Of a stretch of DNA of 64,000 bases, positions 14,149-20,332 are shown piece after piece. The stretch is taken from assembly GCA_028285305.1 (NCBI GenBank), contig JANQPV010000056.1:62001-126000 (forward strand), written 5' to 3'. Numbering within the stretch: the stretch's first letter is position 1; the number at the start of each line of letters is the position of its first letter. Made by a program: the position numbers and the translations under genes. The stretch comes from Alphaproteobacteria bacterium. Lineage in GTDB: Bacteria > Pseudomonadota > Alphaproteobacteria > SMXP01. The notes under the pieces were generated by a model. That model had not been told where the DNA came from. It saw only the letters and a list, made by a program, of their open reading frames with translations, and made no database searches.

Positions 14149-15153
14149 GTGACTGACACGCTTCAAAATGCAACCGAAATTGATACTGCGCGCCCCAGCG
14201 CAGACCAATTGGAAAAGTTCTACCGGGACATGCTGCTTATCCGCCGGTTTGAAGAAAAGGCCGGCCAGCTTTATGGAATGGGCCTTATCGGCGGATTCTG
14301 CCACCTCTATATTGGGCAAGAAGCGGTCGTCGTCGGCATGCAAGCCTGCATAAAGGACGGCGACCAAGTTATCACCAGCTACCGGGATCATGGACACATG
14401 CTTGCTGTGGGACTAGATCCAGCAGGCGTGATGGCAGAGTTGACCGGCCGGAGCGGCGGGCTCTCCCGCGGCAAAGGCGGCTCGATGCACATGTTCAGCA
14501 AAGAGAAGAATTTCTTTGGCGGTCACGGGATCGTTGGGGCCTCGTCTTCGATCGGAACCGGGCTCGCCTTTGCAAACAAGTACCGGGAAAATGACCACGT
14601 TTGCCTTTGTTATTTTGGCGATGGCGCGGCCAATCAGGGGCAAGTCTATGAGAGTTTTAACATGGCCTCGCTTTGGGACCTGCCGGTGGTTTACGTCATT
14701 GAGAACAATCAGTACGCAATGGGGACAAGTGTGAAGCGCTCTTCGTCGGAGACTCACTTGTACCGGCGCGGATCAGGCTTCCGCATACCCGGCGAAGAAG
14801 TCGACGGCATGGATGTGGTGGCGGTCAAAGAGGCGGGAGAAAAAGCAGTTGCCCATTGTCGTTCGGGAGAGGGACCCATTATCCTGGAAATGAAGACCTA
14901 TCGCTATCGGGGCCATTCCATGTCCGATCCGGCCAAATACAGAACCAAAGAGGAAGTCCAAGATTTTCGAGAGCACCATGACCCGATCGACAATGCCAAG
15001 GCCCGATTGCTGAAAGAGGGAACGCTTTCGGAAAGTGATCTCAAGCAAATCGATAAGGAAGTAAAAGCGATTGTCGCTGAAGCGGTTGACTTTGCCAAAG
15101 AAAGCCCTGAACCCGATCCCGGTGAGCTGTATACGGACGTCTATGTATCTTGA
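14149..15153 (+). CDS. pdhA: Pyruvate dehydrogenase E1 component, alpha subunit
   Basis: PdhA and PdhB form the thiamine-dependent E1 that decarboxylates pyruvate and loads the lipoyl group of E2. The 334-residue protein has RRFEEKAGQLYGMGLIGGF near the N-terminus, SYRDHGHMLA and RGKGGSMHMFS, and the thiamine diphosphate motif GDGAANQGQVYESFNMASLW with ENNQYAMGTS. The two-loop phosphorylation-region signature YRGHSMSDPAKYRTKEE is also present. The start is a GTG at 14149 without a strong ribosome-binding site. The 240-bp gap upstream is the likely promoter region of the PDH cluster. Confidence 0.97.
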   Translation: MTDTLQNATEIDTARPSADQLEKFYRDMLLIRRFEEKAGQLYGMGLIGGFCHLYIGQEAVVVGMQACIKDGDQVITSYRDHGHMLAVGLDPAGVMAELTGRSGGLSRGKGGSMHMFSKEKNFFGGHGIVGASSSIGTGLAFANKYRENDHVCLCYFGDGAANQGQVYESFNMASLWDLPVVYVIENNQYAMGTSVKRSSSETHLYRRGSGFRIPGEEVDGMDVVAVKEAGEKAVAHCRSGEGPIILEMKTYRYRGHSMSDPAKYRTKEEVQDFREHHDPIDNAKARLLKEGTLSESDLKQIDKEVKAIVAEAVDFAKESPEPDPGELYTDVYVS

Positions 15154-15163
15154 GAAGACAGGG

Positions 15164-15499
15164 ATGACGGTTGGCAAGATGTGCCTGTACTTAGGAATCG
15201 GTGTGTCACTGTCCGGCTGCGAATCCATTTTGGAAGACACGTTCCCCGCCATATTCTCCGATGTAATAGCCAGAGAGCGCGCTTTTGGAGGGTGGGAGCT
15301 GGAGCTCGAAGCGCCGCTCGAAGAGGGAGGAGGTCGTTCTTACAAGGTTGAACGCCAGATGGAGACAAGGGCGGAAGAGCTGTGCCAAGGCGGCTACCAT
15401 AAGATATTCGAGTCTGTTGACCCGTTACCCTTTGATCCTCCTTCGGATCGTGTCATTTGGGAAATCCAATGCCACGATCAAACGGTGGGCAAGAAGTAA
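15164..15499 (+). CDS. Small predicted lipoprotein inside the PDH operon, function unknown
   Basis: I do not recognise a family. From the ATG at 15164 the product has 111 residues beginning MTVGKMCLYLGIGVSLSGC. That is a lipoprotein signal with lipobox LSGC, so Cys19 would be lipidated and the protein membrane-bound on the periplasmic side. The rest is acidic and mixed, with two further cysteines (ELCQGG and IQCHDQ). An earlier in-frame ATG at 15143 would overlap the end of pdhA. It is only 12 bases before pdhB and is surely cotranscribed. An envelope lipoprotein between E1-alpha and E1-beta is unusual. Confidence 0.7.
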   Translation: MTVGKMCLYLGIGVSLSGCESILEDTFPAIFSDVIARERAFGGWELELEAPLEEGGGRSYKVERQMETRAEELCQGGYHKIFESVDPLPFDPPSDRVIWEIQCHDQTVGKK

Positions 15500-15511
15500 G
15501 GATCCTCAAGA

Positions 15512-16909
15512 ATGGCACATCTCGTTCTCATGCCCGCTTTGTCGCCAACCATGGAGGAGGGCACCCTCGCCAAATGGTATGTCTCTGAGGGAGACACGAT
15601 CGAGTCAGGCGACGTGATCGCCGAAATCGAAACCGACAAAGCCACGATGGAAGTAGAGGCAGTCGACGAAGGCAAGTTGGGACGGATACTTGTTGCGGAG
15701 GGGACCGAAGGGGTCAAGGTCAACGAAACCATAGCCGTCATTTTGGAAGACGGAGAGAATCCGGATGATGCAGAGAAGGCTCTAAACGGAACGAGTGTGA
15801 ACGAGCAACCGCAAAAAGAATCTAAGGACGCGCAGACACCACAGCCACAGCAAGAGGCCCCTCATAAAGAGCCTCCAACTCAAGCAAGCGCGGCGGAGGC
15901 CGATCTTGAGGGTCTAGATACCAAAGAGACAACGGTGCGTGAGGCTCTGCGCGACGCCATGGCCGAAGAAATGCGCCGGGACGAGAACGTCTTCCTCATG
16001 GGCGAAGAAGTGGCCGAGTACCAGGGCGCCTATAAGGTAAGCCAGGGACTACTGGATGAGTTCGGGTCAAGGCGGGTTGTTGATACACCGATCACGGAAC
16101 ATGGGTTCACAGGGCTGGGCGTCGGCGCGGCGTTTGCGGGACTGCGTCCCATCGTCGAGTTCATGACGTTTAATTTCGCCATGCAGGCCATTGATCATAT
16201 CATCAACTCGGCGGCGAAGACCCTCTATATGTCCGGCGGACAAATGGGCTGTCCCATCGTCTTCCGGGGCCCCAACGCAGCCGCCGCGCGCGTCGCCGCG
16301 CAACACAGTCAAGACTTTGCCTCTTGGTACGCCCACGTGCCGGGATTGAAGGTAGTTGCGCCTTATAGCGGCGCAGACGCAAAAGGCCTTCTCAAATCCG
16401 CCATTCGCGATCCAAATCCTGTGGTGGTCCTTGAGCACGAACTTCTCTATGGGAACAAGTTCGAGGTGCCCACCGGCGACGATTACCTCGTTCCCATCGG
16501 CAAGGCCAAGGTCGTCCGTCCTGGAACGGATGTCACATTGATCGCCTATAGCCGGTCCGTCCTTTTTGCACTGGAAGCTGCCGAAACATTGGCAAACGAA
16601 GGGATTGACGCGGAAATCGTCGACCTGAGGTCGCTGAGGCCTATGGATACCGAAACCCTGATCAACTCTGTCAAGAAGACAAACCGGGCGGTGACCATCG
16701 AAGAAGGATGGGGCCCCTGCGGCATTGGTGCCGAAATTTCGGCAACGCTCATGACGGACGCCTTTGACTATTTGGACGCCCCCGTTGTCCGCGTGCACCA
16801 GGAGGATGTGCCCTTGCCATACGCCGCCAATCTTGAAGCGCTCAGCCTGCCGAACGCTGAGAAAATAGTGCAGGCCGCCAAGCGTGTGAGCTATCGGGAG
16901 ACCAAATAA
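15512..16909 (+). CDS. pdhB: Pyruvate dehydrogenase E1 component, beta subunit with N-terminal lipoyl domain
   Basis: This is the E1-beta partner of PdhA. Residues 1-80 are a biotinyl/lipoyl domain ([17 protein letters not shown], with the lipoylated Lys43 in [17 protein letters not shown]). A linker rich in Gln, Pro and Glu follows (about 85-130), then the transketolase-like beta domain ([20 protein letters not shown] to the end, with [17 protein letters not shown] and [17 protein letters not shown]). The lipoyl fusion on E1-beta is typical of alphaproteobacteria. Its stop overlaps the pdhC ATG by one base. Its lipoyl DNA is strikingly similar to that of pdhC. Confidence 0.97.
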
Positions 16910-18204
16910 TGCCGATCCCCATTCTCATGCCCGCTCTGTCGCCGACGATGGAAGAGGGTACACTGGCGAAGTGGTTGGTCAAAGAAGGTGACAGTGTGGA
17001 GGCAGGCGATGTCATCGCCGAAATCGAAACCGACAAGGCCACCATGGAAGTAGAGGCGGTAGACGAGGGCACGCTGGCGCGCATTCTCGTCCAAGACGGA
17101 ACCGACGAAGTCGCCGTCAATGCCCCCATTGCGCTGTTGCTGGAGGAGGGAGAGGATGCCTCGGCTCTCGAAGGGTTCAGCGTTAAGCCGTTAAACGGAA
17201 GTCAGGCGCCGGCGGAATCAGACCAATCTGCACCCGAACAAATCTCAGCGTCACCGGCTCCAGAACCGGAGCCCGTTCTTTGCACCGCTCCAATGCCTCC
17301 GATGGGGGAGCGCATATTCGCCAGCCCTTTGGCGCGGCGATTGGCCGGGGAAAAAGGGATCGATCTCACCTCCGTTGCCGGAACAGGTCCCCACGGCCGC
17401 ATTATCAAGCGCGACATCGAAAGCCACCAACCCAAATCAGCTCCTGCGGCACGACCCTCAGAGCCCCCCAAAGACGCAAAAGCGCCGCCCGCGGGCCTGT
17501 TCGTTGAAGGGCGCTACGAAACGATAAAGCTGGACGGCATGCGCAAAACCATCGCTGCCCGCATGACCGAGTCCAAGCGCGACATTCCGCACTATTACCT
17601 AACGATCGATTGCGAAATCGATGCGCTTCTCAAGACGCGCAAGGAACTGAACGCCAAATCTCCCGAAGGGGAGGGGAGCTTCAAGATCTCTGTCAATGAT
17701 TTCGTTGTTCGCGCCTGCGCTCTTTCGCTGATGAAGGTCCCCGAAGCCAACCGCTCGTTCACGGAAGACGCCATCATCCAGCACAAACACGCAGATGTCG
17801 CGATCGCGGTTGCGATCGACGGCGGCTTGATTACGCCCATCGTTTTTGACGCCGAAGCTAAAGGACTCTCGGTCATTGCCAAAGAAGTCCAAGACTTGGC
17901 CGCACGGGCCCGTGATCGCAAACTTATGCCCGAGGAATATCAAGGCGGAACCTTCTCGATCTCCAATCTTGGCATGTTCGGTGTGAAGCACTTTACCGCG
18001 GTTATCAATTCGCCTCATGCATGTATTCTCGCCGTCGGTGCAGGCGAAAAACGGCCGATAATCAAAGATGGCGCAGTCTCCTCGGCCACGATCATGACCT
18101 GCACCATGTCCTGCGACCACAGAGTGGTTGACGGCGCGGTTGGCGCCCAGTTTCTTCAGGCCTTTAAGGGATATATTGAAGATCCTCTGACGATGCTCTT
18201 ATAG
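16909..18204 (+). CDS. pdhC: Dihydrolipoamide acetyltransferase, E2 of the PDH complex
   Basis: E2 moves the acetyl group from its lipoyl arm to CoA and forms the core of the PDH complex. Domain order in 431 residues: lipoyl domain 1-80 with Lys43, a Pro/Ala-rich linker, a peripheral-subunit binding domain at about 138-175 (ASPLARRLAGEKGIDLTSV, then GPHGRIIKRDIE), a second linker, and the catalytic domain from about 205. The active-site His404 is in CDHRVVDGAVG. It has a single lipoyl domain. The ATG overlaps the last base of pdhB, so translation is coupled. Confidence 0.97.
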   Translation: MPIPILMPALSPTMEEGTLAKWLVKEGDSVEAGDVIAEIETDKATMEVEAVDEGTLARILVQDGTDEVAVNAPIALLLEEGEDASALEGFSVKPLNGSQAPAESDQSAPEQISASPAPEPEPVLCTAPMPPMGERIFASPLARRLAGEKGIDLTSVAGTGPHGRIIKRDIESHQPKSAPAARPSEPPKDAKAPPAGLFVEGRYETIKLDGMRKTIAARMTESKRDIPHYYLTIDCEIDALLKTRKELNAKSPEGEGSFKISVNDFVVRACALSLMKVPEANRSFTEDAIIQHKHADVAIAVAIDGGLITPIVFDAEAKGLSVIAKEVQDLAARARDRKLMPEEYQGGTFSISNLGMFGVKHFTAVINSPHACILAVGAGEKRPIIKDGAVSSATIMTCTMSCDHRVVDGAVGAQFLQAFKGYIEDPLTMLL

Positions 18205-18235: not shown

Positions 18236-18844
18236 ATGCAACTTTACAGTAGCCAATTGGGATCCAACCCAAAACGTGTGCGGATGTTTCTTGCCGAAAA
18301 GGACGTGCAGCTGCCGACAACCGACCTGGACTTTATGAAAGACGAACATCGGGCGCCGGATTTCTTGGCGATCAATTCTCTTGGGAAAGCGCCGGCCCTG
18401 ATCATGGATGATGGCACGGTGATCACAGAGAGTGTGGCCATTTGCCGGTTTGTCGAAGAGTTCCATCCCGAACCGCCTCTGTTCGGCACCGATGCCAAGT
18501 CACGGGCCCTGATCGAAATGTGGATCCGCCGGGCGGAGCTGGAACTGGTTCGACCGTGTTCAGATGTCGTTCAGCACACGGCGGAGTTCTTTGCGGACAA
18601 AGTGGACCAAAACGCCGAATTCGCAGCTTCACAGCGGGAATTGGCTGGAAAGAAATTTGCATGGCTGGATGGGGAAATCGGCGGCCGCGATTTTCTCGCC
18701 GGCAACGCCTTTTCCATGGCGGACATCGTCGCCATTTCGGCCTGTGATCTTGCGCGAATGATGAAGATCGATATTCCTGAAGACCTTGAGAATGTCCACG
18801 CCTGGATCGGCAGGGTGACGTCGCGGCCCAGCTATTCGGCGTAA
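18236..18844 (+). CDS. Glutathione S-transferase family protein
   Basis: A 202-residue soluble protein with the two-domain GST layout. A thioredoxin-like N-terminal domain (MQLYSSQLGSNPKRVRMFLA, with APDFLAINSLGKAPALIMDD and the TESVAICRFVEE glutathione-site motif) precedes an alpha-helical C-terminal domain with the N-capping motif FSMADIVAISACDLAR. The likely substrate-activating residue is Ser5 or Ser6, or Asn10. The substrate cannot be read from sequence. It lies between pdhC and lpdA with GAGGAGGAG upstream of the ATG, so it may be read with the PDH genes, perhaps serving redox or detoxification needs. Confidence 0.85.
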   Translation: MQLYSSQLGSNPKRVRMFLAEKDVQLPTTDLDFMKDEHRAPDFLAINSLGKAPALIMDDGTVITESVAICRFVEEFHPEPPLFGTDAKSRALIEMWIRRAELELVRPCSDVVQHTAEFFADKVDQNAEFAASQRELAGKKFAWLDGEIGGRDFLAGNAFSMADIVAISACDLARMMKIDIPEDLENVHAWIGRVTSRPSYSA

Positions 18845-18943: not shown

Positions 18944-20332
18944 ATGACGGAAAAGAACTATGACCTTGTGGTGATCGGCTCGGGCCCGGGCGGGTATGTG
19001 GCTGCCATCAGAGCCGCCCAACTGGGCATGAAGACCGCCATTGTCGAGCGCGAACACTTGGGCGGCATCTGCTTGAACTGGGGCTGCATTCCCACCAAGG
19101 CCTTGCTGCGTTCGTCGGAGATCTATCATCTCATGCATAGGCTCGATGAATTCGGCTTCTCGGCGGACAACATTTCTTTTGATCCGGCAAAAATCGTGAA
19201 GCGTTCGAGGGACGTGGCCAGTCGTTTGTCGAATGGCGTGAAGTTCCTCATGAAGAAACACAAAATCGACGTCATTGAAGGCCACGGCAAGCTCGTCGCC
19301 TCCGGCAAGATTTCCGTGGAAGGCACTGAAGTCAGCACCAAGAACATTATCCTCGCCACTGGTGCCCGCGCCCGCAGCCTGCCGGGTCTCGAGCCCGACG
19401 GCAAACTCATTTGGACCTACAAGGAGGCAATGGTACCCGAGGCCATGCCGAAGTCGCTTCTGGTCATCGGCTCCGGCGCAATCGGCATCGAGTTTGCGAG
19501 CTTTTACAATACGCTCGGGGTGGATACGACGGTCGTTGAGATCTTGGACCGCGTTCTGCCGGTGGAAGACGAAGAGATTTCTCAGATGGCGGAGAAAGCC
19601 TTCAAGAAACAGGGCATGAAGATCCATACCCAGACGGAAGTAAAAAGCCTCAAGAAATCGGCGAACTCCGTCACTGCCGAGCTTCAGACAGCCGACGGCA
19701 AAACGGAGTCCCTGACAGTTGATCGGGTCATTTTGGCCGTCGGTATTGTCGGCAACGTGGAGGACATCGGGCTTGAAGAGCTGGGCATCGACGTCGACCG
19801 CGCCCACGTGAAAATCGACCAATGGTGCAAGACCAACGTCGACGGCATCTACGCCATCGGCGATGTGGTGGGCGCGCCGTGGCTTGCTCACAAAGCGATG
19901 CACGAAGGCGTTCTGTGCGTTGAACATATCGCCGGCGAATCGGGCGTTGAGCCGCTTCACACGGAGAATGTGCCGGGCTGCACCTATTGTTTCCCACAGG
20001 TGGCAAGCGTCGGCCTAACAGAGGCAGCGGCAAAAGCTGCCGGCCATTCGGTGCGCGTGGGTCGGTTTCCCTTCCAAGGCAACGGCAAGGCCATCGCTTT
20101 GGGTGAGGATCAGGGCCTCATCAAAACCGTCTTTGATGCGGAAACAGGCGAGCTTTTGGGCGCTCATATGATCGGAGCGGAAGTCACGGAGCTTATCCAC
20201 GGATATTCGATCGCCAAGACACTCGAGACGACGGAAGCGGAACTGATGCACACCATCTTCCCTCATCCGACCTTGAGCGAGATGCTGCATGAGTCCGTTC
20301 TCGACGCGTACGACCAGGCGCTGCATATTTAG
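18944..20332 (+). CDS. lpdA: Dihydrolipoyl dehydrogenase (E3)
   Basis: LpdA reoxidises dihydrolipoamide on E2 and passes the electrons to NAD+ through FAD. The 462-residue protein has the FAD-binding Rossmann motif IGSGPGGYVAAIRAAQLG (about 11-28), the redox disulfide Cys43/Cys48 in LGGICLNWGCIPTKALL, the NAD-binding motif VIGSGAIGIEFASFY (about 175-189), AIGDVVGAPWLAHKA, and the C-terminal catalytic dyad in FPHPTLSEMLHE. The start ATG has GGAGAAG upstream. It lies with pdhABC and just before lipA, so enzyme and cofactor synthesis are linked. Confidence 0.97.
   Translation: MTEKNYDLVVIGSGPGGYVAAIRAAQLGMKTAIVEREHLGGICLNWGCIPTKALLRSSEIYHLMHRLDEFGFSADNISFDPAKIVKRSRDVASRLSNGVKFLMKKHKIDVIEGHGKLVASGKISVEGTEVSTKNIILATGARARSLPGLEPDGKLIWTYKEAMVPEAMPKSLLVIGSGAIGIEFASFYNTLGVDTTVVEILDRVLPVEDEEISQMAEKAFKKQGMKIHTQTEVKSLKKSANSVTAELQTADGKTESLTVDRVILAVGIVGNVEDIGLEELGIDVDRAHVKIDQWCKTNVDGIYAIGDVVGAPWLAHKAMHEGVLCVEHIAGESGVEPLHTENVPGCTYCFPQVASVGLTEAAAKAAGHSVRVGRFPFQGNGKAIALGEDQGLIKTVFDAETGELLGAHMIGAEVTELIHGYSIAKTLETTEAELMHTIFPHPTLSEMLHESVLDAYDQALHI

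Follow-up and report, generated by a model that had tools for sequence, protein, structure and literature searches.

An alphaproteobacterial pyruvate dehydrogenase (PDH) operon carries a small open reading frame, with the features of a lipoprotein gene, between pdhA and pdhB. The gene probably encodes a lineage-restricted outer-membrane lipoprotein that is carried by the operon as a passenger, most likely without a role in PDH. The open reading frame, its lipobox and its position are evident, the gene is absent from the relatives examined, and different passengers are found at the same junction elsewhere. The product would be lipidated and placed in the outer membrane, and its gene would be co-transcribed with those for PDH.

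The lipoprotein gene and its neighbours

The window, which is the whole 64,000 nucleotide stretch of DNA analysed, contains an intact block in the order ftsB-pdhA-[lipoprotein gene]-pdhB-pdhC-GST-lpd-lipA (Table 1). The flanks of this block, an ftsB-like DivIC gene and lipA, were identified using Pfam, and farther upstream are two genes that we take to be eno and kdsA. The lipoprotein gene runs from ATG to TAA, with 111 codons for 111 amino acids. It begins 10 nt after the pdhA stop codon (15151-15153) and ends 12 nt before the ATG of pdhB at 15512. The frame and these gaps bear out the initial annotation, which had described a 111-residue protein with an LSGC lipobox at this site, and the profile matches of the two neighbours confirm that the insertion is between the genes for E1-alpha and E1-beta. 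An alternative in-frame ATG at 15143 overlaps the 3' end of pdhA. The start at 15164 is favoured because the sequence GAGAAG, recognized by eye, is 6 nt upstream of it.

The operon has a second extra gene, which is GST-like. Its match to the FtsZ-binding FzlA is far under the cut-off (57.7 versus 300 bits) and it is missing from the pdhC-lpd position in the relative G001.

Table 1. Features of the PDH block in the window, and groups of genes inserted at the pdhA-pdhB junction elsewhere.
Feature	Position or locus	Strand	Basis
pdhA, pyruvate dehydrogenase E1-alpha	14149..15153	+	TIGR03182, 520 bits
Likely ribosome-binding site GAGAAG of the lipoprotein gene, overlapping the pdhA stop codon	15152..15157	+	By eye
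Orphan small lipoprotein open reading frame, 111 aa	15164..15499	+	Open frame, lipobox rule, codon score, GC3
Predicted signal peptide and lipobox LSGC, lipidated Cys19 (codon 15218-15220)	15164..15220	+	Sequence, lipoprotein rule
Likely ribosome-binding site AAGGA of pdhB, overlapping the lipoprotein gene stop codon	15498..15502	+	By eye
pdhB, E1-beta with N-terminal lipoyl domain	15512..16909	+	NF008854 (807 bits), PF00364
pdhC, E2 acetyltransferase	16909..18204	+	TIGR01349
GST-like gene between pdhC and lpd, second extra gene of the operon	18236..18844	+	PF02798, PF00043
lpd, E3 dihydrolipoyl dehydrogenase	18944..20332	+	TIGR01350
MAPEG-like inserts	L046, L047, L049, L052, L053, L114 and one of two genes in G007		BLASTP group
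VOC/glyoxalase-like inserts	L058, L059, G026		BLASTP group
SnoaL-like inserts	Maricaulis loci L048, L073		BLASTP group
DUF3291 insert	G007		BLASTP group
Unclassified 127-aa insert	G067		BLASTP group
345-aa insert, likely signal peptide by eye	L107		BLASTP group

Features of the predicted protein

Bacterial lipoproteins begin with a charged n-region, followed by an uncharged stretch and a lipobox with its cysteine at about residue 15 to 35. The N-terminus of this protein, MTVGKMCLYLGIGVSLSGC-E, fits the rule, with Lys5, an uncharged stretch up to the lipobox LSGC, and Cys19. Whole-protein residue shuffles retained the rule in 36 out of 20,000 cases, and 6 of the window's 311 open reading frames with 60 aa or more satisfy it from some start. 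Lipoproteins sorted to the outer membrane by the Lol system are without Asp at the +2 position after the lipidated cysteine, a rule that comes mainly from E. coli. Here residue 20, at +2 after Cys19, is Glu. The protein is therefore a predicted small outer-membrane lipoprotein, its lipidation and location being read from the N-terminal sequence.

The initial annotation gave the protein three cysteines and a possible disulfide. The precursor in fact has four (Cys7, Cys19, Cys74, and Cys103), of which the mature protein keeps three. Since Cys19 would be lipidated, Cys74-Cys103 is the sole possible disulfide.

Under the passenger explanation, the gene would have landed in the pdhA-pdhB junction singly, in the same orientation as its neighbours and between intact cistrons. 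The intergenic distances, 10 and 12 nt, point to co-transcription with PDH; the gene is thus predicted to be expressed from the PDH transcript, and its translation would begin from a ribosome-binding site of its own, located at the pdhA stop. Export by Sec, lipidation of Cys19 and cleavage by signal peptidase II would follow, and Glu rather than Asp at +2 would direct sorting to the outer membrane. The resulting acidic periplasmic domain of approximately 10.6 kDa may hold the Cys74-Cys103 disulfide. The operon would merely supply its passenger, which may have some envelope role, with steady expression.

Search for homologues

By sequence comparison the lipoprotein looks like an orphan, with no family match, one genomic copy and no credible relative elsewhere. 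Pfam returned no family above cut-off; the sole match, to DUF7666 (PF24703, E 0.12), was rejected because it reaches 13.3 bits against a gathering cut-off of 27. The lipoprotein has no match in NCBIfam, solved structures or PHROGs, nor in viral contigs, plasmids and phages. In Pfam, NCBIfam and solved structures, nothing above cut-off resembled a known subunit or regulator of PDH. There is a single copy of the gene in its own genome (E ≤0.001). A set of 96 genomes, drawn from the window's family and, at roughly one genome apiece, from many families of the class, gave one match, which is the window's own genome. This is also the one genome representing the genus among those searched, and so the lipoprotein family may occur in unsampled members of the genus.

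A search of 385 genomes of the class at E ≤0.05 found the lipoprotein itself and three weak short matches (E 0.01-0.03). These were judged to be chance, one being antisense to a longer open reading frame, with stops, and two being 15-bit stretches of longer frames; alignments were examined for two of the three and L133 was judged by its 15.1 bits alone. A pattern scan of genome_contigs (84,980 species), which reaches close relatives only, identified 15 stretches with the pattern, of which none was confirmed. The search sets may omit records very near the window. The structure predicted from the single sequence gave no useful information (mean pLDDT 42.7), so remote homologues may exist. No report of a lipoprotein gene in a PDH operon was found in the portion of the literature that was covered.

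The same site in relatives of the family

In three of the four other genomes of the family (G001, G003, and G004), pdhA and pdhB are side by side without the lipoprotein gene, with estimated gaps of 9, 30, and 29 nt, respectively; the G001 gap is 12 nt by its actual open reading frames. The fourth, G002, is 77% complete and has no pdhA or pdhB match at the thresholds used. Flanking genes that are adjacent without the gene in G001, G003, and G004 are as expected for an operon passenger, and the conserved association expected of a PDH component is absent from the same three. The initial annotation had proposed looking at the same place in related genomes and had counted absence from all relatives against its reading. 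The gene is indeed absent from this junction in the relatives examined, which argues against a conserved role in PDH, not against the gene itself.

The order ftsB-pdhA-pdhB-pdhC-lpd-lipA is kept in G001 without the lipoprotein gene and without the GST, and this genome has open reading frames of 251 codons between eno and ftsB and of 126 codons between lpd and lipA, the names of these genes being assigned partly by eye. In G003, an open reading frame of 307 codons lies between pdhB and pdhC (L005 2956-3879, +). The PDH block gains and loses small genes.

Two other arrangements of E1 genes were seen. Genome G000 contains four further E1-beta-like genes, on contigs C4 (two places), C60, and C73, each beside an E1-alpha-like match. 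At G054:C127:15465-17438 (-) the pdhA and pdhB matches overlap and share a common 661-codon open frame, thus E1-alpha and E1-beta may be fused there.

The pdhA-pdhB junction in other bacteria

Two samples of the junction were measured. The named pdhA loci are the best 80 matches of a longer list, and not an even sample; two of these (L062 and L118) end before pdhB, leaving 78. The median pdhA-pdhB gap in these 78 is 15 nt, and the junction is at least 150 nt in 11, all of which carry an insert. For the relatives, pdhA was matched in 73 genomes and coordinates were taken from 69 of them, leaving out G030, G031, and G053, which have distant paralogues only, and G034, where pdhA is split. G091 has no neighbouring pdhB because its contig ends there (L039). 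This gave 68 pdhA-pdhB pairs including the window, and therefore 67 relatives. The pdhB alignment reaches the N-terminus in 49 of the pairs. From the 19 others, the three with a raw distance of more than 150 nt (G084, G090, and G074) were opened and found to have no insert, and in the remaining ones the raw distance does not exceed 117 nt. An insert of at least 150 nt is present in 3 of the 67 relatives measured by coordinates (G007, G026, and G067). The two counts were not summed because the samples overlap, L045 probably being G004.

The inserted genes form six groups in an all-against-all BLASTP comparison (E ≤0.001; Table 1), and the lipoprotein joins none of these at the same threshold. 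Pfam, applied to nine of the inserts, identified three as MAPEG, two as glyoxalase, one as DUF3291 and one as SnoaL_2 under the cut-off, with no match for two. The pdhA-pdhB junction is not a slot for lipoproteins; inserts are a recurrent minority, and they belong to unrelated kinds. The conclusion that position at the junction does not imply a role in PDH rests chiefly on this observation. Together with absence from the site in three family members, it supports the suggestion in the initial annotation that the gene simply hitchhikes.

A MAPEG-like membrane protein gene is present at seven loci (L046, L047, L049, L052, L053, L114, and L027), several of them labelled Hyphomonas or Hyphomonadaceae, and this recurring association may merit separate study. 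Three loci have a small gene of the VOC/glyoxalase type at the junction (L028 1100-1519 (-), L058, and L059). The 345-aa insert of L107, from an alphaproteobacterial MAG, is proline-rich, apparently secreted, and has no Pfam match.

Insertion scars and RNA structure

There are no direct repeats in 15050-15600. An imperfect inverted pair, 75% complementary, brackets the gene at 15177-15196 and 15503-15522, with the start codon of pdhB inside its 3' arm. The best-scoring inverted pair near the gene is a different one, whose better score was reached by 16 of 60 shuffles. The bracketing pair was for this reason rejected as a mobile-element end, being no stronger than chance allows. A weak terminator-like match is present inside the open reading frame at 15433-15450 (+), and is counted against the passenger explanation; there are four terminator-like sites on both strands compared to 1.9 in shuffles.

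Alternative explanations

It is possible to ask whether the open reading frame is a gene at all. Its codon score is 0.17 in frame, versus -0.23 and -0.35 in the other forward frames and no more than 0.02 on the reverse strand, and its GC3 of 0.60 is close to the mean of 0.61 for other genes of the window. Among in-frame chunks from those genes this score ranks at the 21st percentile, but 30% of best-wrong-frame chunks also attain it, so codon usage alone is no proof of coding. This, and the lack of a homologue in any search made, would suit either no genuine gene or a very young one arising from non-coding sequence, with an accidental lipobox. Against this, the open reading frame fills the junction to within 10 and 12 nt, is preceded by a plausible ribosome-binding site, scores well above its other five frames, and has a lipobox arrangement that few shuffles retained. 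We regard either possibility as unlikely. The open reading frame might instead be chiefly a translated spacer, in which finishing ribosomes open the pdhB start and set the PdhA:PdhB ratio, the protein itself being unimportant. Each of the two ribosome-binding sites overlaps the stop codon before it, that of pdhB lying on the stop of this open reading frame, and therefore coupled translation is possible, which also counts against the passenger explanation. In a 350-nt upstream context the predicted accessibility of the pdhB start is 0.285, compared with a mean of 0.48 (sd 0.08) for base-shuffled upstream sequence, with 1 of 40 shuffles lower. However, in a 200-nt context it is 0.49, with no reduction, and the RNA fold of the region is ordinary (z -0.13). 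A spacer would have no need of a lipobox, and the relatives examined manage without the open reading frame. A spacer function accordingly seems quite improbable.

A functional link would make the lipoprotein either an envelope factor tied to PDH, such that envelope growth tracks acetyl-CoA, or a reporter of envelope state to metabolism. The short gaps, the shared orientation within the operon and a composition resembling that of native genes are all compatible with it. However, the gene is absent from three family members, no homologue was found at the 78 junctions measured among the best 80 named loci, and a periplasmic domain would be unable to touch a cytoplasmic complex directly. The proposal in the initial annotation that the gene ties envelope state to pyruvate flux thus finds no support, since the gene shows no conservation alongside PDH in the relatives examined, the searches yielded no homologue and the protein has no recognisable domain, and we consider a link of this kind very unlikely. 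A more elaborate version, in which the junction is a favoured alphaproteobacterial landing place selected for growth-linked expression and the lipoprotein is a lineage-specific envelope factor matching envelope growth to acetyl-CoA, is highly improbable. The passenger explanation is preferred over these.

Comparison with known systems

The gene is of a known kind, a small lipoprotein, in a known situation, that of a gene inserted in an operon, and is an orphan member. It offers a clear case of an orphan gene set between two subunits of one core enzyme. It also cautions against inferring what a gene does from its place in an operon, since several unrelated genes occupy this junction in other bacteria. 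Should the gene be conserved under selection in its genus, it would be a candidate envelope factor expressed with central metabolism.

Its predicted product shares with small Gram-negative outer-membrane lipoproteins the signal peptide, the LSGC lipobox, the lack of Asp at +2 and a small acidic mature domain, but differs in that it fits no assignable sequence family and is found in only one of the genomes searched. The MAPEG or glyoxalase/VOC genes share its junction, similar size and orientation, but encode other protein classes with no sequence similarity to it. Insertions into conserved operons are known from a study of the rpoBC-str-S10 cluster, where 77 of 115 events were traced to gene insertions (PMC8046335). 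As there, an unrelated gene is present within a conserved block and relatives are without it; the difference is that the inserted gene here comes between two subunits of a single enzyme, at a junction where a number of unrelated inserts are found.
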